The notes: a model not told the origin generated them from the letters alone. A DNA stretch of 64,000 nucleotides from Candidatus Schekmanbacteria bacterium (GCA_016219965.1 JACRJM010000015.1:219857-283856); one strand, 5' to 3'. Positions 5,777 to 15,840 are shown, numbered from the stretch's first letter. Translations and numbers: made by a program.

Positions 5777-8700
5777 TTTGAAAAGAAGGTACTTACGGCC
5801 TTTTGAATATCTGATTCTTTGAAAGGTTTTGTTATATATTTGTTTCCGGTCATTCTGAGAAACTTATTTGTTTTCCAATCAGTAGCTTGTTCTGTAACAA
5901 AGAGGAAGCGGTCGGCAAGATAGTTTTTTATCTTTGTGGCCTCCTTGTAAAAGGAGATGCTGTCCATATCAGGCAATTTGAGTCCGCTTATAACAATATC
6001 AAAATCAACTGATTTTATTTTTTCCAGTGCATCATTCGCATTCTTGGCTTTCATAATTATTCGCATGTTATTGTTAAGGGAGTCAGCTATTCCGTGTCCG
6101 AATGCAGTTTCACTAACTATGACAAGGATACGTGTCAATTTCTTGAGTTTATGAAAAGGTGTGATTGAAACTTTTTGGGTTAGTATAAGTTCAGAGCTTT
6201 CCATATCACTTGCCGGTATAAAAATGGATACTGTAGTCCCTTTTCCCACAGTGCTTTCTGCTGTAATCTCACCTCCATGTTCTTTTATTATCCCATAGGA
6301 TATTGAAAGCCCAAGACCTGTTCCTTCACCTGTTGGGCTGGTTGTGAAAAAAGGATCAAATATCTGTATCAGATGATTTTTTTCTATACCTATCCCGGAA
6401 TCCTCTATGTCTATTCTTATTTCTTTTTTCTTTTTATCAGAATTTGAATCATGGTGAAGCTCTAAAGATGAAGATATTTTTATGAATCCCTCTCCGCCTT
6501 TTTTTAATAGGCTCTGAACAGAATTGTTTATTACGTTTATTATGACCTGTATGATCTGATTTTTGTCACCATAGATTAATGGCAGGTTGTTCCCCAAATG
6601 TTTTCTGACTATTACTTTGCTTTCTTTAAGACCGTAGTTGATAAGTTCAAGTGTGTCCTCGACAGTTCTGTTTATGTCTAAGAGGCTTTTCTCCGCGGCT
6701 TTTTGTTTTGAAAAAGATAGAAGTCCTTCAACTATTTTTGCAGCCCTTTCAGCCTGAGTATGTATGGTCTTTATCTTATTTTTTATTTTATCATGCAGGA
6801 ACTTTTCGCCAAGCAGTAGTTCTGAAAACCCAAGGATTCCGGAAAGCGGATTGTTTAATTCATGGGCTATTCCGGAAACCATTGTACCAAGGCTTGAAAG
6901 TTTTTCAGAATTTATAAGTTGTATCTCCAGTTTTTTCTGTGCAGTTATATCTTTGAAAACACCGAGTATCCCATAAATTTCCCCATTCTTGTCGAGGAGT
7001 GGCGCGGTATTGACCAGTAGAGAAGATTTTTTCTTATTGTCAACTAAAAGAGTGACTTCTTTGTTTACGATTGGGATTCCTTCACTAAGGGTTTTTGCTA
7101 TGGGGCGGTCTTTTGGTTCAATCTCAATTCCGTTTGTGTCAAAGTAGCGGTTACGCAAAAAGAAACTTTCCGGGTCGAATTTAAAATCAGTCTCTTCAGG
7201 ATTTGCAAAGATTTTCTTGACTTCATTGTTCCCTATTATTTTTTTTTCTTTTATATCTATAATCAACAAACCATCATGAAAGGTTGTAAAAATGTTATTT
7301 AGCTCTTCAGCCTGTTTTATTAATTTATCATCCTTTTCTCTCTGCTCGGTAATGTCCTTGAAAGTTGATATTATGTTTTGCACGTTTCCTTTTCTGTCCT
7401 TTATAAGGGATACGTTGATTATGCCGCAGATTCTTTTCCCTCCCTTGAACTCAAGATTGTATAAATTGTTTATGGTGGGTTCACCGTACTTGAAAGCTTT
7501 GACCAGAGGCAACGAGTCATAAGGTACTTCCTTGCCGCTTAGATCTGTCATCTTAATATTTTTCAGAAAATCATTCAAAAAATCATCAAACGAAGTATCA
7601 TTTATGAATCCGTGGACTTTCTGAGCGAGTTTGTTCGATTTTATCACTTTTTTATCAGAATCGAACATAACTATGGAATCAGGAAAATCATTCAGCAGGG
7701 TATCAAGCTGTGACGTCTGCTTGTTAAGTTTTCTTTCGGCATTTCTTATATCAGTTATGTCAGTGGCAATATGTACACATCCCTCTGTTCCTGTTTCCGG
7801 CATGCTGATAGGAGAAACAGAAATCAGCAGAATTCTACCGCGTTCTTTATCTTCATATTCTATGATTGTAGGTTTTGCTCCCGCCATTAATTTGTGTGTA
7901 ATGCATTTGCCGTCTTTTTTGTAATTAGTGCAGTTGAACAAATCATAACATTTAATTGGGACAGAAGAACGGTGAACCATTGGCTCTATGAATGTTTTTC
8001 TGAAAGTCTCATTGTATTTTGTTATGTTATAGTCGAGGTCGGTAATGAATATGTAGTCTGAAATCGAATTGAAGGTTGTTTCCCATTCCTTGTTGGCAAT
8101 GAGAATATTTTTTAAAAGTACATTTCTTTCAATCATAGAAGAAATGTGAACAGCTACCTGTTCCAGAAAAGGAATATCATCATCTGTGAAACAATCGTTA
8201 TTTTTCCTGCCAAGAGTTATACATCCGCTTATGGATTTTCTGGATTTCAAAGGAATATACATTATGGAATTTACACCATATCTGAGACATTGTTTATCTT
8301 CTGTAAATGTATTAAAACCGTCTTTAATATTCCTGATTAATGGCTTTGCTGTTCTTATGGTTTCCGATATGGCTGTTTGACCGATTCCGGCTTTCAGTGC
8401 CTGTTCAACCGGGAATCTGATGTGTTGCTGACGAAGAAAATAAATTGAGATGGGATTCTTTTCCTTGTCATAGACCCATATTCTCCCTATGCTGTCAAAG
8501 GGAATAACCTTTTCAATCTCACGCCCAATATCAAAAAAAACTTTATTAGAAGGGACACTGCTGTTTGAAATTTTTGCTATAATATTCAGCGTTTTTAGCT
8601 GGAAAGCCTGTTTTGATGCGACTTTGTAAAGCCTCTTTGACTCGCTCTCCGTATTTTTATGATGGGTGATGTCTTTTATAAGAAATACTGCCGTCTCGGG

Positions 8701-10524
8701 CTTTTCGACTTTGTATATGCAACAGGGATTTATGGATATTTCATAAAATCTGCTCTTATCCTTTGCCTGAACTGTGAAGTTCACTGTTTTGCTTTCATCA
8801 AATGTGACGGTTTTATAGCTTTCATCAACGATTATTCCAAGTTTTGCAAAAAAAGTCTGTATGTCCTGCACATTTGTAAGTTTCCCAGTTTTCCTGATTA
8901 ATCCCTGTGCAGATTTGTTAAGGTGAATGATCTTCCCATCACTGTTGGTTAAAAGAATATAGTCTGAAATGGAGTCGAAAGTTTTTTCCCAGTTTAGTTT
9001 TTCCTGTATGGCATCTTTCGTCAGGATGTTATTTTGCAGTGCCATTGTGAAATTCCCTGCTATCATCCCTGTGCCTGAGAGATCTGTCTGGTCAAATGCT
9101 TTTTTCTTACGGCTTGCCAGGGCAAGGAATCCTATTACTTTATCAGGCATTGAAAGAGGAGCGATAACACTTGACTGCAATCCGCTCATTACCGCAATCT
9201 TTTCTTCCATGAAACTTGCTTTTTCTGCCTGGTCTACTGTAAGAAATCTTCTTCTGTTTTTAAGGTGGTAAACAAGGCTTTCCTTGTTGTCAGGATTAAC
9301 ATCATACTCTATTCCCTTCCGGAGTTTTCCACTAACGTAGATTTGAATACGCACTTTCCGGAAATCATCGCTGAAAAAACCAATCATCGCCGCATCAAAG
9401 GGAACGCATTCACTCATTTCTTTAAAAAGATATTTTATGGCATGTGTGGTATTCTTTGAACACAGTGTTTCCCTTGTGATGAAGTTTGTGGCCCCGGAGT
9501 ATCTGTTTTTTCTGGAAATAATATTATTGTATCTGAATCTTTCGATCGCATTCCCAAGCTGGCGAGACAGCATTTCAGCGTATTCCCCGTCAGCCTTTGT
9601 ATAATAATCACTTTCCTTTTTCATCAGGGACAGTGCTCCGAGCACCTTTCCCTTTGAAAGGCACCCGACAATAAGTTCAGAAACCATTCCGCTATCCACT
9701 GCAGTCTGTCTGGCAGGCAGTTTTGGGTCAGTTCGAATGTCAGCCGAGATATGAAATTTTTTCGTCTTGAGGATATATTTTATTTTAGGCGAACTTATTG
9801 GTGCATTAATATTCTTTGATTCCCAATACCTTTCCGTGCTGTAATGATAGAGATCTGTAACGATGTCTTCTTCTTCATCAAACACTGTAATGACCATGGA
9901 ATCAAATCTGACTATCTGCTTCATGACGGGGGCTATTCTTTTTATTATTTGAGTCATTGAACGCTCTGAAGTGATATACTTGATTATATTATTGATTGCT
10001 TTGAGATTTGTTGAATATCTGTTTTTTGTCTCTTTGTTCAGCGCTGATTCAAGCATCATCCCTGTATGTGTGAGAAAAAGTCTTATCTCTTTTAATTCAT
10101 TTTCTTCATAAGGAGCATGTTTTCTGAACAATATGATTGCTCCTATTTTTTTATTGTTCAGGTTTATTATTAAATTGTTTGCTAAGTATGGGTATTGTTC
10201 TTTAAATTGCAGTTCCCGGGGGATATGCCTTAGAGATTTGATTTTTTTATTCGGATTGGTGAAGTAATCGTTAAGGCTCTCAATATATTTCGCTTGGAGG
10301 TTTGATTCCCATTTTCCATTATTATATATACCTGCCAGTTCAACGCAATTCTCTTTTAGGATGGTAGCAACTCCGGCGTCTGAACCGGTTAAAGCTATTG
10401 AGTAGAGCAGCGTGTTTTGAAGAATGCTTTCTTTGCTTTTTGAAGAATTTAACTTTTTCAGATAATGATTTATTTTATCTTGCTGTGTATGGACTATTTT
10501 TTTTGTGTGAGGTTTTTTTCTCAC
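5773..10524 (-). CDS. Giant cytoplasmic GAF/PAS histidine kinase with a degenerate receiver domain
   Basis: 1583 residues with no membrane segment. Approximate order: GAF 30-160, GAF 180-335, GAF 350-505, PAS 515-635, GAF 650-795, PAS 810-925 (with cysteines in YDLFNCTNYKKDGKC), PAS 945-1060, PAS 1075-1190, HisKA with H1221 in GIAHELNNPLSGILG, HATPase 1310-1440 (DSGIGIE, GEGTGLGLS), receiver-like 1465-1583. In that last domain the acidic pocket reads LVIVSE instead of VVDDE and the phosphoacceptor position is Gly1514 (VISGLKLPDMD), while the YITKPF lysine is kept. It should not accept phosphate. It is divergent from a HTH-receiver gene and a lone receiver, the likely output partners. Confidence 0.9.
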   Translation of the reverse strand: MRKKPHTKKIVHTQQDKINHYLKKLNSSKSKESILQNTLLYSIALTGSDAGVATILKENCVELAGIYNNGKWESNLQAKYIESLNDYFTNPNKKIKSLRHIPRELQFKEQYPYLANNLIINLNNKKIGAIILFRKHAPYEENELKEIRLFLTHTGMMLESALNKETKNRYSTNLKAINNIIKYITSERSMTQIIKRIAPVMKQIVRFDSMVITVFDEEEDIVTDLYHYSTERYWESKNINAPISSPKIKYILKTKKFHISADIRTDPKLPARQTAVDSGMVSELIVGCLSKGKVLGALSLMKKESDYYTKADGEYAEMLSRQLGNAIERFRYNNIISRKNRYSGATNFITRETLCSKNTTHAIKYLFKEMSECVPFDAAMIGFFSDDFRKVRIQIYVSGKLRKGIEYDVNPDNKESLVYHLKNRRRFLTVDQAEKASFMEEKIAVMSGLQSSVIAPLSMPDKVIGFLALASRKKKAFDQTDLSGTGMIAGNFTMALQNNILTKDAIQEKLNWEKTFDSISDYILLTNSDGKIIHLNKSAQGLIRKTGKLTNVQDIQTFFAKLGIIVDESYKTVTFDESKTVNFTVQAKDKSRFYEISINPCCIYKVEKPETAVFLIKDITHHKNTESESKRLYKVASKQAFQLKTLNIIAKISNSSVPSNKVFFDIGREIEKVIPFDSIGRIWVYDKEKNPISIYFLRQQHIRFPVEQALKAGIGQTAISETIRTAKPLIRNIKDGFNTFTEDKQCLRYGVNSIMYIPLKSRKSISGCITLGRKNNDCFTDDDIPFLEQVAVHISSMIERNVLLKNILIANKEWETTFNSISDYIFITDLDYNITKYNETFRKTFIEPMVHRSSVPIKCYDLFNCTNYKKDGKCITHKLMAGAKPTIIEYEDKERGRILLISVSPISMPETGTEGCVHIATDITDIRNAERKLNKQTSQLDTLLNDFPDSIVMFDSDKKVIKSNKLAQKVHGFINDTSFDDFLNDFLKNIKMTDLSGKEVPYDSLPLVKAFKYGEPTINNLYNLEFKGGKRICGIINVSLIKDRKGNVQNIISTFKDITEQREKDDKLIKQAEELNNIFTTFHDGLLIIDIKEKKIIGNNEVKKIFANPEETDFKFDPESFFLRNRYFDTNGIEIEPKDRPIAKTLSEGIPIVNKEVTLLVDNKKKSSLLVNTAPLLDKNGEIYGILGVFKDITAQKKLEIQLINSEKLSSLGTMVSGIAHELNNPLSGILGFSELLLGEKFLHDKIKNKIKTIHTQAERAAKIVEGLLSFSKQKAAEKSLLDINRTVEDTLELINYGLKESKVIVRKHLGNNLPLIYGDKNQIIQVIINVINNSVQSLLKKGGEGFIKISSSLELHHDSNSDKKKKEIRIDIEDSGIGIEKNHLIQIFDPFFTTSPTGEGTGLGLSISYGIIKEHGGEITAESTVGKGTTVSIFIPASDMESSELILTQKVSITPFHKLKKLTRILVIVSETAFGHGIADSLNNNMRIIMKAKNANDALEKIKSVDFDIVISGLKLPDMDSISFYKEATKIKNYLADRFLFVTEQATDWKTNKFLRMTGNKYITKPFKESDIQKAVSTFFSN

Positions 10525-11756: not shown

Positions 11757-11960
11757 TTAGCTGAAGTGCTTCCCTTTCTGTTGCCTGCATTTTTTATTGG
11801 CTTTTTCAATAGCATCATTTTTCTTAGGGCATATAGTGTCGGCATAAGCAGAGTCGTCGAGTGATATGAGCTTAGGGCTTATCCATTTTTTAACTACCGA
11901 AGCAGCAGCAGCCACTGTCAGGGTTTTCTTCCCTTTTTCAAGGAATTCGCGTCTCTTCAT
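11757..11960 (-). CDS. Small Tat-like peptide, candidate RiPP precursor
   Basis: 67 residues. The N terminus MKRREFLEKGKK is a twin-arginine-like n-region, followed by a short hydrophobic stretch (LTVAAAASVV). Then W26-x2-P29-x-L31-x2-L34 resembles the leader motif bound by PqqD-like recognition elements (lasso-peptide leaders have Y-x2-P-x-L). SAYA (37-40) looks like a signal-peptidase site. The last 27 residues are strongly basic with two cysteines, C44 and C58, as a plausible core. AAGGAG sits seven bases before the ATG, and the gene overlaps the end of the radical SAM gene by 23 bases. Either an exported modified peptide or a small Tat-leader protein. Function inferred from neighbours. 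Confidence 0.75.
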   Translation of the reverse strand: MKRREFLEKGKKTLTVAAAASVVKKWISPKLISLDDSAYADTICPKKNDAIEKANKKCRQQKGKHFS

Positions 11961-13008
11961 ATTTATTCTCCTTAAAATAACAAGTATTGTTGTCAGAAGT
12001 AAACTTTCCGTTCTGCGCCAGAGGACAAAGAGGATATGACCCCCAGAGGTTGCCGGTCATCCTGTAAGCAATACCCCTGCATCCCCCCCTGCATTTATCT
12101 TTTAATTCGCATGACCCGCAGACTCCGGTAAGTTTTTCCGGTTTGATGAATTTCCTGAAAGCCCTGATATCCTGCCAGCATTTTTTCAGTCCTTTTTCCA
12201 GAACATTGTTTCTAACATCAAATAAAGCTGACATACTGCACTGATACATGTTTCCTTGCTCTGATATAGTGGAGAGGTAAGACTTTTCATCACCCAGAGT
12301 GCATGCCGCAGCACATCCATCCTGGCGCATTGATAGAGAGAAGCTCTTGAAATCTATCTCTGCAGAATATTTTTTTTCAAGCCCTTCAATCATACTTTCA
12401 AGATTTAATAACTCGTCTACAGAGGGTTTTAGTGATGCGTAATTATTCAATGCTCTTCCAATGGGTACGACTTCATCAAGGCATATTGATGTAACTCCAA
12501 ACGAAGATAAAAGTTTAACGAGTGAAGGTGCATCTGAGATATTATGTTTAGTCAATGTGGTTTTTGTATGGATTGGGATTCCGGAAATTAAAGAGAGCTC
12601 AATGGCATTCACTATTTTTCTGAATGACTTTCCGCCGGTCAGCATGTCATTAATTTCCGGTGTTGAGCCGTGTATGCTTATCTGTATGTTCTTAAGGCCG
12701 TTGCATTTGAGCCTATTAAGAGCTTCCCTGTTGAGCAGTGTACCGTTAGTTGTAAGCTCGACGGATATTCCTGCATTTCTTAATGAGCTTATAATGTGAT
12801 AGGTGAGATTATCTGCAAGTGGTTCTCCTCCGGTCAGGACAACTTTAAGTATGCGGTTATCTATAATTTCTTCAAGTATCCTGAGTTTCCCCATATCTCC
12901 GGTAGAATCTTTTTTGTCCTTTCCTGAACTTACAAGACAAAAAGGGCATTGCAGGTTGCACCTTGAAGTAAAAGACCAAACAACCTCTATGGGAGATTCT
13001 AGAAGCAT
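11938..13008 (-). CDS. Radical SAM/SPASM peptide-modifying enzyme
   Basis: 356 residues. The radical SAM cluster motif is C17-x3-C21-x2-C24 (SRCNLQCPFC), with TGGEP at 59-63 for SAM binding. The C-terminal SPASM part has cysteines at 232, 236, 257, 297, 300, 306, 310 and 328, including VCGSCELKDKCRGGCRG, enough for two auxiliary 4Fe-4S clusters. Such enzymes (PqqE, AlbA, anaerobic sulfatase maturases) modify peptide side chains. It follows the PqqD-like gene by seven bases and overlaps the small precursor gene, which is the natural substrate candidate. The reaction (thioether, C-C crosslink or other) cannot be read from sequence. Confidence 0.92.
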   Translation of the reverse strand: MLLESPIEVVWSFTSRCNLQCPFCLVSSGKDKKDSTGDMGKLRILEEIIDNRILKVVLTGGEPLADNLTYHIISSLRNAGISVELTTNGTLLNREALNRLKCNGLKNIQISIHGSTPEINDMLTGGKSFRKIVNAIELSLISGIPIHTKTTLTKHNISDAPSLVKLLSSFGVTSICLDEVVPIGRALNNYASLKPSVDELLNLESMIEGLEKKYSAEIDFKSFSLSMRQDGCAAACTLGDEKSYLSTISEQGNMYQCSMSALFDVRNNVLEKGLKKCWQDIRAFRKFIKPEKLTGVCGSCELKDKCRGGCRGIAYRMTGNLWGSYPLCPLAQNGKFTSDNNTCYFKENKYEETRIP

Positions 13009-13015
13009 GAAGTTT

Positions 13016-13306
13016 CTAAGAAAGAGTTATAATTCCCTTATATGAGAGAAGACTTATGAAATCAATTATCTCTGTTTCCATTTGAGAAGAATTTCCTTCA
13101 TACAGATGAGCCATTTCTGATATTACTGCTCTTACGCTTAGGTTACCGTTACAAAGGCTCCATATCAATGACCCTGTTTCATTTAGCAAGGATGGCTCTC
13201 CATTTGTATCATCGAATATCACGGCTTTGCCATTCTCAATGCGTGAAAGTATATGAGGGGCATGAACCGGTATTTTATCCAAAATATCTGTTTTATCTAC
13301 AGTCAT
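13016..13306 (-). CDS. PqqD-like peptide carrier (RiPP recognition element)
   Basis: 96 residues. It has the PqqD layout: an N-terminal beta hairpin with GKAVIFDDTNGEPSLLNETG, then LIWSLCNGNLSVRAVISEM and a C-terminal helix ending in LLSYKGIITL. PqqD-family proteins bind the leader of a ribosomal peptide and present it to a radical SAM enzyme, which here is the next gene, seven bases downstream. The region before its start carries several near-copies of its first 15 bases. Fold call is good; the partner peptide is inferred to be the 67-residue product. Confidence 0.85.
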   Translation of the reverse strand: MTVDKTDILDKIPVHAPHILSRIENGKAVIFDDTNGEPSLLNETGSLIWSLCNGNLSVRAVISEMAHLYEGNSSQMETEIIDFISLLSYKGIITLS

Positions 13307-13380
13307 TTTATTCAGAGTGTTTTATTTACAATCATTTTTTTGCAATCATTATTATTTACAGTCGTTTATTTACAATAATC
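13307..13380 (-). repeat. Short imperfect tandem repeats between the HprK-like and PqqD-like genes
   Basis: Read on the minus strand, units like ATTGTAAATAAACG, ACTGTAAATAATAATG, ATTGCAAAAAAATG and ATTGTAAATAAAACAC follow one another and resemble the start of the PqqD-like gene (ATGACTGTAGATAAAACA). The first unit includes the last codons and stop of the HprK-like gene. Spacing is about 15 bases. Probably replication slippage; it creates extra ATG codons ahead of the real start. Confidence 0.6.
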
Positions 13381-14355
13381 GAGAATCTCTTTTATGAAAT
13401 CTGCAAGCTCTGCGCTGTTTTTCTTCAGACTGTATTGTATGTGAAAAACAGGGGTGGTGTCGAACATAAAATTTATTATGTCGTACGCCTTCCTGTTATT
13501 TTTTCTGATTATTTTCTGCACGCTATCGGTCTCAGTATTAGTTGATAGAGTCTCTGCAAGTGAAAGAAGCTTATATAAATAAGCGGTACCGCTGCTCTTC
13601 TTTACTGTGAGTCTTTTGTATTTCTCGGATTCGGCAAGGACTATGCAAGCAGCCAGTTTGGCGCTCTTGAGCCGGCATCCGGAAGAAATGTCATCCGGGT
13701 TGATTATAAATCCATCCTGATAAAATGCGCTGTATCGCGTCAAAGTATGTCCAGTAATCATATCTTTCCCCTCGGAAGATTCAGCAAAACCGTCTCCAAT
13801 CCTTATATGCCGGGGGAAAGAAAGGAGCGTTAGCTTGTCTCTTTTTTTTTCAATAAATGTCTCTTCATCTGATAAATATTTAAATCCTTTTTTTATGAGT
13901 AAAAGAGACATGGTGGTTTTTCCTGAGCCGGAGTTCCCGGCAAGAAGCACTCCCTTACTTCCGTATGCAAGTGATGCTGAATGGATGCCTGTCAGCTGCT
14001 TTTTCTTTGCAAGTAAGAAGCGGGAAATGTAACCCACTATTGAGAGTGTGACAAGGACTGCTTCATCGAATGAATAACCTCTCTTTAAAAGTATGGTGCT
14101 TTTCATTTCTTGAAAGTCTGTAAAAGTAAAGATTCCGGGACTTATTTGTTCTGCGTTTTGCACAACTTCAGGAGTGATACTTTTCCCATCGGTATGCCGG
14201 CATACATATATTGTAATCGATGGAATAACTTTCTTCTGTGCGGCAAAGCCTATAAGTTCACGTGAAACTGAATTGCCTATTTTATGAGAGTCAGAAACAA
14301 GCCTAACGTGGATTCCGTGTATATCAAAAAGCATGTCAAAAAAATATTCTGTCAT
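13366..14355 (-). CDS. HPr kinase-like protein of peptide/polysaccharide clusters
   Basis: 329 residues. Residues 119-170 match the kinase core of HprK: GIHSASLAY (conserved His in the hHAS motif), Walker A GNSGSGKT at 140-147, and LSDEE at 161-165, where HprK has its catalytic SDD segment. The N-terminal 115 residues are unlike HPr kinase. Relatives of this type occur beside PqqD-like and nucleotidyltransferase genes in lasso-peptide and other secondary-metabolite loci, where they may phosphorylate a peptide. No HPr gene is nearby. It is the first gene of the minus-strand operon HprK-PqqD-radical SAM-precursor. Substrate unknown. Confidence 0.82.
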   Translation of the reverse strand: MTEYFFDMLFDIHGIHVRLVSDSHKIGNSVSRELIGFAAQKKVIPSITIYVCRHTDGKSITPEVVQNAEQISPGIFTFTDFQEMKSTILLKRGYSFDEAVLVTLSIVGYISRFLLAKKKQLTGIHSASLAYGSKGVLLAGNSGSGKTTMSLLLIKKGFKYLSDEETFIEKKRDKLTLLSFPRHIRIGDGFAESSEGKDMITGHTLTRYSAFYQDGFIINPDDISSGCRLKSAKLAACIVLAESEKYKRLTVKKSSGTAYLYKLLSLAETLSTNTETDSVQKIIRKNNRKAYDIINFMFDTTPVFHIQYSLKKNSAELADFIKEILDYCK

Positions 14356-14396
14356 GGGAGTTTTAATTTGAATAATTATTCTATATCATAAAGTGC

Positions 14397-15623
14397 ATGA
14401 AATATGAAAATAAAGCGCTGTCTTCTGATGATCGGGAAATAAGTTTCCTTTTTTCGTCCCTGAAAGCCGGGTTCTCAGAAGAGTCTGCCTCACATCTTAG
14501 AAACATAGCTCTATATTCATCAAGAAAGTTTTCATGGGAAAGGCTTTGTAAACTGGGGGAAGAATTTGATGTTGCCCCGTTTATATATAATGCCTTGTTA
14601 GCATCGGGACTTGATGAGGTTGTCCCTCCCGCCTTTTTCTCTAAGCTCGAAATAGAGTATTATCAAAACCTCTCCAAAAATATGCGAGCTCTTAAGATAT
14701 GCAATCAACTTGCCTCAGCTTTCAGGAATGACGGGATAAGAGTGATATTACTTGGCGGGGGAGGGTTTCTGGGTACGTTATATGAAAATATGGGGTTAAG
14801 ATATGTAGGTGATATAGACATTCTTATCCATAAAGACAGATTCGAGGATGCAAGAAAAACTCTCGGTTCATTAGGTTTTACGCAATTTAAGAAATACAGG
14901 GGAGTAATGAAAAGCGGGAGTATAACCATCGATATCCATACTGATATAATTGACTCGGAGAGGATTAGTTCAAGGAAAAATATATACAGCTTCAATCCGG
15001 AATTATTCTGGAGTGATTGTATCCCCCATCCTGAAGTTGATGGGGCTTTCGTACTTTCCCCATCTGACTCATTGCTGTATTCCGCCTTCCATTGTTTTAA
15101 ACATTCTTTTTCAAGGATAATTTGGAGCATAGACACAGCAGAGATAATAAGGAAATACGGTGATAAGGAATTTTATGATTATATACTTTCTATATCTCAA
15201 GCAAACGCCACTTCTGTTCCCATCTATTACTCCCTTGCCTATATCCATGAGACCGGAATAAGCACAATAGATACCGTCGCATTGAAAAAGCTTAAAGAAA
15301 ATTTCCGCGAAAATAAGATAGCTAAAAGGATATTTCAAATGGCTGTAGACGGAAGGAATATAGGCAGTTTCAGTGAGTTATTGGTCATTCTATCTAGAGG
15401 GCAATCGGGGCGGTCCGGGCAAAGCAGCAATGCCTGCTTAAAGTTTTTTATCGAGTCTCTTTTTCCCTGCAAAAACACTTTGAAAGAGATATACCCACGC
15501 TGGCCTGAAAAGTTTATTTTATTTGCCTATCTTGCACGGTTTGTTGATATATCAATACGAACATTTTTTATGTGTCTTAGATTTTTCAAATTAACACCGG
15601 GCAGAATGACCGGAAAAAGTTGA
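14397..15623 (+). CDS. Uncharacterised nucleotidyltransferase family protein
   Basis: 408 residues. Centre: LLGGGGFLGTLYENMGLRYV followed by G-D139-I-D141-ILI, the GG...DxD signature of the nucleotidyltransferase superfamily in its uncharacterised Pfam NTP_transf_5-like form, with a later ITIDIHTD that may supply the third acidic residue. The rest is helical. It is divergent from the HprK-like gene with only 41 bases between, too little for well-separated promoters. Homologues travel with PqqD/HprK-like genes, so it probably acts on the same peptide or on a regulator of it. The reaction is unknown. Confidence 0.8.
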   Translation: MKYENKALSSDDREISFLFSSLKAGFSEESASHLRNIALYSSRKFSWERLCKLGEEFDVAPFIYNALLASGLDEVVPPAFFSKLEIEYYQNLSKNMRALKICNQLASAFRNDGIRVILLGGGGFLGTLYENMGLRYVGDIDILIHKDRFEDARKTLGSLGFTQFKKYRGVMKSGSITIDIHTDIIDSERISSRKNIYSFNPELFWSDCIPHPEVDGAFVLSPSDSLLYSAFHCFKHSFSRIIWSIDTAEIIRKYGDKEFYDYILSISQANATSVPIYYSLAYIHETGISTIDTVALKKLKENFRENKIAKRIFQMAVDGRNIGSFSELLVILSRGQSGRSGQSSNACLKFFIESLFPCKNTLKEIYPRWPEKFILFAYLARFVDISIRTFFMCLRFFKLTPGRMTGKS

Positions 15624-15675
15624 CTTGTCTTAAATGTTTAATTAAACTTGGACAATAAAACAGACAGGTGAGGAA

Positions 15676-15840
15676 ATGGAAAAAGAAATAGAAACAAAGG
15701 AAGGCACAGGTTTTTTTAGCCGTTACAAGGGAGAAATAATTTTTACTCTTCTTATAATCTATGTTCTCCTTCTCGCGCTTGGCACTGTTGGCGAGCTGTT
15801 TGATGTTGAATGGATACTGAAACTTCCAATATTTAACTAA
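15676..15840 (+). CDS. 54-residue single-pass membrane protein
   Basis: Short reading frame starting MEKEIETKEGTGFFSRYKG with a good ribosome site (GGTGAGGAA) and ending LKLPIFN. Residues 21-41 (IIFTLLIIYVLLLALGTVG) form one membrane helix with a charged N-terminal side. It lies 52 bases after the nucleotidyltransferase gene on the same strand. No homologue is recognised. It could be an accessory of the peptide cluster or an unrelated small membrane protein. Confidence 0.6.
   Translation: MEKEIETKEGTGFFSRYKGEIIFTLLIIYVLLLALGTVGELFDVEWILKLPIFN

Follow-up and report, generated by a model that had tools for sequence, protein, structure and literature searches.

The window, a 64,000-nucleotide stretch of Candidatus Schekmanbacteria DNA, encodes a compact gene cassette that is well supported as a member of an uncatalogued family of radical SAM (rSAM) RiPP systems. 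Its core is a four-gene unit on the minus strand (11757–14355) that consists of an HprK-like kinase (13366–14355, 329 aa, P-loop GNSGSGKT), a PqqD-type discrete RiPP recognition element, or RRE (13016–13306, 96 aa), a radical SAM/SPASM enzyme (11938–13008, 356 aa) and a 67-aa peptide (11757–11960; MKRREFLEKGKKTLTVAAAASVVKKWISPKLISLDDSAYADTICPKKNDAIEKANKKCRQQKGKHFS). On the plus strand, the divergently transcribed gene for an NTP_transf_5 protein of 408 aa (14397–15623) is followed by a 54-aa membrane-type ORF (15676–15840). We moderately favor the fuller reading in which RRE, rSAM enzyme, kinase and transferase all act on the peptide as their precursor, with export by the Tat pathway in the window's family. 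An earlier note on this DNA had named this gene set, and ORF and domain calls recovered every gene in its place. The divergently transcribed nucleotidyltransferase that it listed is confirmed (Pfam NTP_transf_5, 9.7e-41), but the accompanying small membrane protein is unconserved, lacking a counterpart after the transferase gene in the second genus described below, and was rejected as a part of the system. Promoter and terminator scans gave results near chance.

The 67-aa ORF is a real gene. It starts inside the rSAM gene, the two overlapping by 23 bp, and a Shine-Dalgarno sequence, AAGGAG (11968–11973, minus strand), lies just upstream of its ATG. The window's family includes a second genus (G001, L107), whose orthologue of the peptide is 69% identical. 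Differences between these two peptide genes are distributed over the codon positions as 16/8/40, and dN is 0.20 as against 0.42 for the neighboring rSAM gene, indicating a coding gene under purifying selection. Another peptide match, in G009, was dismissed as chance, as it contains stop codons and its locus has no rSAM or PqqD gene. The peptide features noticed earlier (the twin arginine, W26xxPxL, AYA, C44 and C58) are all present in the sequence. From the N terminus, the peptide comprises a Tat-like segment (residues 1–23, 11892–11960; KRREFLEK and hydrophobic TLTVAAAASVV), a predicted RRE-binding leader motif (residues 24–35, KKWISPKLISLD, 11856–11891), a predicted signal peptidase I site, AYA (residues 38–40, 11841–11849), with cleavage before D41, and a predicted mature core (residues 41–67, 11760–11840) with C44, C58 and the C-terminal S67, all three of them conserved; these features likewise lie on the minus strand. 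When the peptide is shuffled with its composition preserved, the published leader motif [YW]xxPx[LIVFA] (PMC13381572) together with a C-terminal Ser turns up in 0.14% (0.0014) of cases; among 256 window ORFs of 40–100 aa, one has this combination.

The rSAM enzyme matches the Radical_SAM Pfam model at 1.5e-21, and the Pfam SPASM model gave no score on it. Its CxxxCxxC motif and seven further cysteines are conserved, with a SPASM-type Cys set in all full-length members of the family. PqqE and MftC are the nearest curated models, both far below their cut-offs, and PqqE is the top solved structure; more broadly, all matches to the PQQ, mycofactocin, SynChlorMet and HPr-rel-A families fell far below the curated NCBIfam cut-offs. 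A structure model of the enzyme (pLDDT 65.5) added nothing. The RRE matches the PqqD Pfam model at 1.6e-9, and in profile comparisons of the RRE family the lasso RREs were nearest among solved structures (TbiB1, 5.1e-11). Lasso RREs bind [YW]xxP leaders (PMC13381572).

In the second genus, the PqqD, rSAM and peptide genes are arranged in the same order, and its rSAM protein is 54% identical to that of the window. Only 84 bp of this contig precede PqqD, and a different contig of the same genome opens within an NTP_transf_5-type gene (32% identity to the window's); an assembly gap may therefore hold the kinase and the remainder of the transferase. A contig search with the window rSAM alone returned only distant, generic rSAM proteins; a profile built from the window and second-genus proteins, when run against 386 genomes, revealed two additional lineages with members. 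After a search of those phyla, the rSAM family stood at 12 genomes, of which two belong to the window's family, six to the second lineage (f93) and four to the third (f107). Full-length members score below 1e-100 in the profile search, while background rSAM proteins reach no better than ~1e-50; two members are shortened by contig ends. A maximum-likelihood tree places 11 members in a 100/100 clade, separate from 19 background rSAM proteins. The enlarged profile, run against 385 genomes of which probably many were re-sampled, detected no additional lineage. The family is uncatalogued by curated models, and its rSAM subfamily could have been listed before, for instance in the 2022 atlas of rSAM RiPPs cited in PMC12452194.

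No homologous cluster lacked the small peptide: its gene stands beside the rSAM gene in all 12 cassettes, at a distance of −23 to +31 bp from the stop codon of the latter, each time with a Shine-Dalgarno-like sequence. All 12 precursors carry W-x-x-P-x-[LI] in a leader near the N terminus (in the window's family, after the Tat-like segment), two or three cysteines and an invariant C-terminal Ser. The proposal in the earlier note of a possible new ribosomal-peptide modification system is thus supported by the peptide, leader motif and C-terminal Ser of 12/12 clusters. The cores otherwise differ widely between lineages, the Cys and terminal Ser being their only conserved residues. Searches of the precursors against NCBIfam and Pfam models gave no convincing match, and a profile of ten precursors lacking the Tat segment did not score the window peptide above shuffles. 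Because similarity across lineages is too weak for a profile, the precursor family is defined by position, motif and C terminus. This variability of the cores bears on the possibility of a cofactor-like peptide product with a redox or metal-binding role, along the lines of PQQ, mycofactocin or copper-binding bufferins, as opposed to a signaling, surface or antimicrobial peptide. The placement of the rSAM enzyme nearest to PqqE and MftC, with PqqE as top structure, would suit such a product, as would the resemblance of an exported Cys peptide to bufferins; given scores far below the PqqE and MftC cut-offs, cores that vary in all but Cys and Ser and no dehydrogenase partner among the cassette genes, we consider it quite unlikely.

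A degenerate lasso peptide locus that has lost its cyclase is very improbable. The WxxP leader, lasso-like RRE, HprK and NTP_transf_5 proteins all occur in paeninodin-type loci, and two precursors reach the paeninodin family model at E ~0.03. However, no macrolactam cyclase or B2 leader peptidase gene was detected among the ORFs around the cassette, in agreement with the absence of a cyclase and protease reported earlier, or in those related cassettes that were inspected; every cassette has an rSAM gene in its stead, and both purifying selection and conservation over three lineages speak against decay.

The kinase assignment combines several matches. The HprK Pfam match is weak (8.8e-6, under the curated cut-off) and the TIGR04355 match, at 1.1e-10, is also under its cut-off; the P-loop is conserved in orthologues. 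A structure model of low confidence (pLDDT 48) matches PEP carboxykinases, the fold group to which HprK is related, and is weakly supportive. Within f93, an HprK-like kinase abuts the cassette in four loci and lies on another contig in a fifth (G094); the sixth locus, whose contig starts inside the rSAM gene, is left out of this count. For two f93 loci, a PF14907 gene was confirmed next to the kinase. In f107, the third lineage, the HprK-like kinase is absent, and the kinase is thus an accessory part of the system. In paeninodin-type precursors, the C-terminal Ser is a substrate of HprK-like kinases and PsmN is needed for the addition of hexoses to it (PMC9266682), and LPP clusters contain the same kinase/NTP transferase pair with no cyclase (PMC13381572). 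Because of the paeninodin, pseudomycoidin and LPP precedents, phosphorylation of the C-terminal Ser by the kinase, then a PF14907-dependent addition, is probably the likeliest tailoring by analogy; since f107 keeps the Ser without such a kinase, this residue may serve something else. Absence of the kinase from the third lineage also fits the view that kinase and NTP_transf_5 protein act elsewhere, for example on a surface polysaccharide, and that the rSAM enzyme alone modifies the peptide. Several loci are flanked by surface-sugar genes, the window transferase gene is divergently transcribed, and the genome has other HprK-like proteins besides that of the cassette. Even so, this separation of functions seems unlikely: the kinase directly adjoins the rSAM-RRE unit in two lineages with the transferase beside it, peptides are the substrates of this pair in paeninodin and pseudomycoidin (PMC9266682) and in LPP (PMC13381572), and the C-terminal Ser is invariant.

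The N-terminal MKRREFLEKGKK and the hydrophobic stretch behind it occur only in the window's family, in two genomes. The first 12 residues of the peptide are identical in both genera, and AYA-D after the leader motif is also kept. Elsewhere in the window's genome, the pattern KRR[DE]FL[KE] was found at one site only, the N terminus of an apparent molybdopterin oxidoreductase, a classical type of Tat substrate, and the hydrophobic stretch of the peptide is at least as hydrophobic as that of the oxidoreductase. Both window-family genomes encode TatC, as do the four f93 genomes that were checked; in the four f107 genomes it was not found. The features of a Tat substrate are all present (an RRxFL motif, a hydrophobic stretch, an AxA site and a Tat translocase in the genome); the Tat model TIGR01409 was not among the matches. 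The leader motif looks like it sits in the c-region of a Tat-like signal, and a Tat-leader fusion in one branch is likely as judged from these sequence features. The Tat-like precursor of the earlier note is accordingly supported by the second genus, TatC and the oxidoreductase motif, with the qualification that the segment is private to one family: the cassette recurs in three unrelated bacterial lineages, the Tat-like segment in two genomes only. A genuine rSAM RiPP whose RR segment is a leader extension or a Sec/membrane anchor, its leader removed by an unlinked protease, would account for the two other lineages having no RR segment and for a hydrophobic stretch that is short (11 residues), with a long c-region behind it. 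The N-terminal identity between genera, the conserved AYA-D, the match to the oxidoreductase in both motif and hydrophobicity and the presence of TatC argue against this non-Tat role, which we do not regard as probable.

The sequences directly reveal which genes are present and how well they are conserved, as well as the motifs and TatC, and from these we infer the chemistry and export of the favored Tat-exported RiPP model. By homology and motif, the PqqD-type RRE would bind WxxPx[LI] of the precursor and present it to the rSAM/SPASM enzyme, which would modify the Cys-containing C-terminal core. Cys thioether cross-links are the most likely modification, because, apart from the terminal Ser, no core residues but the cysteines are conserved; the conserved Cys would be consistent with the cross-links of sactipeptides and ranthipeptides. 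As in paeninodin and pseudomycoidin, the HprK-like kinase would phosphorylate the invariant C-terminal Ser, after which a sugar or nucleotide would be added to the Ser phosphate by the NTP_transf_5 protein. In the window's family, the RRE-binding leader would form part of the c-region of a twin-arginine signal, which the bound RRE may mask as long as the core is incomplete. Export of the modified peptide would follow through Tat, a route for folded cargo that would suit a cross-linked peptide, and cleavage by signal peptidase I after AYA would remove signal and leader together, yielding a cationic 27-residue product. A dedicated exporter or protease was not identified in the other two lineages. 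The best reading of these sequences is that one branch fused its RRE-binding leader into a Tat signal peptide and that modification precedes export. The most specific version, in which the leader is part of the Tat signal, the RRE acts like a Tat proofreading chaperone and the peptide is cross-linked by the rSAM enzyme, both phosphorylated and glycosylated at its C-terminal Ser, handed to Tat only once complete and freed by ordinary signal peptidase, is put forward as a tentative possibility.

Paeninodin-type phosphorylated lasso peptides (PadeK/ThcoK; PsmK, PsmN) likewise have a discrete RRE, a WxxPx[LI] leader and an HprK-like kinase, and share the NTP transferase and C-terminal Ser; the cassette differs in its rSAM/SPASM enzyme, its conserved Cys core and, in one family, the Tat-like segment. 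LPP systems also combine a discrete RRE, an HprK-like kinase and an NTP transferase with no cyclase, but have an SpI-like peptidase, an MsbA-like transporter and a phosphorylated Ser3, with no rSAM enzyme described (PMC13381572). Neither the peptidase nor the transporter gene is in the cassette. Leader removal in LPP is by a dedicated signal-peptidase-type enzyme, whereas in the cassette such removal is only predicted, and the LPP leader motif, YxxPxVLxHQxIxFETxxS (PMC13381572), is replaced by W in place of Y and none of the remaining motif. PQQ, mycofactocin, SynChlorMet and GeoRSP systems pair a SPASM enzyme and a PqqD-like RRE with a small precursor, as here, and SynChlorMet has an HprK-like protein too (ScmC), with a ScmE/ScmF pair compared to the single rSAM enzyme of the cassette; in contrast to all four, the cassette lies below every curated cut-off and its precursor belongs to no family. 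In bufferins and RiPP-lipoprotein hybrids (PMC12452194, PMC12636315), the export signal peptide is likewise kept during cytosolic modification, but by MNIO enzymes rather than an rSAM enzyme. These published signal-peptide RiPPs use the Sec or lipoprotein route (PMC12452194, PMC12636315) as opposed to a Tat-like signal, and literature searches turned up no Tat-exported RiPP. How premature export is avoided before modification is an open problem for bufferins (PMC12452194), and the fusion of an RRE-binding leader with a Tat signal, if true, would answer it directly. The family also joins radical SAM enzymes with the HprK/NTP_transf_5 tailoring known for lasso and linear phosphopeptides, and its conserved C-terminal Ser offers a defined assay site for the poorly understood NTP_transf_5 proteins.

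Several other loci were noted during these searches. Third-lineage loci have a conserved gene of ~690–700 aa immediately before the RRE gene (L141:6482–8554, L143:9486–11552 and L161:9684–11792), and its L141 copy has OmpA and TPR domains. A Cys-rich small ORF with a leader-like YEPPKV motif (L160:9588–9851, plus strand; G388) lies ~1 kb beyond two tandem rSAM genes. PqqD, HprK-like and rSAM genes followed by a transglutaminase-like gene, whose L109 copy scores above cut-off as a lasso B2 leader peptidase, occur in L104 from the window's genome and in L109, L112 and L116 from its order, with no cyclase or precursor seen. An LPP-like set with an rSAM gene (PqqD, rSAM, HprK-like and signal-peptidase-like genes) is present at L110:6722–10785 and L115:8991–11903, where no precursor was found; the L110 signal-peptidase-like copy is above the archaeal-type signal peptidase I cut-off, and L110 also has an NTP_transf_5 gene. 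Finally, a possible second RiPP precursor family is represented in the window's own genome and a relative by L118:5736–5912 (plus strand) and L113:4362–4589 (minus strand), which have in common Y(V/I)xPEVITYxxDxxxxxLGxxQAC and lie near rSAM and HprK-like or P-loop genes, the rSAM gene of the L118 locus being at 7840–9201.
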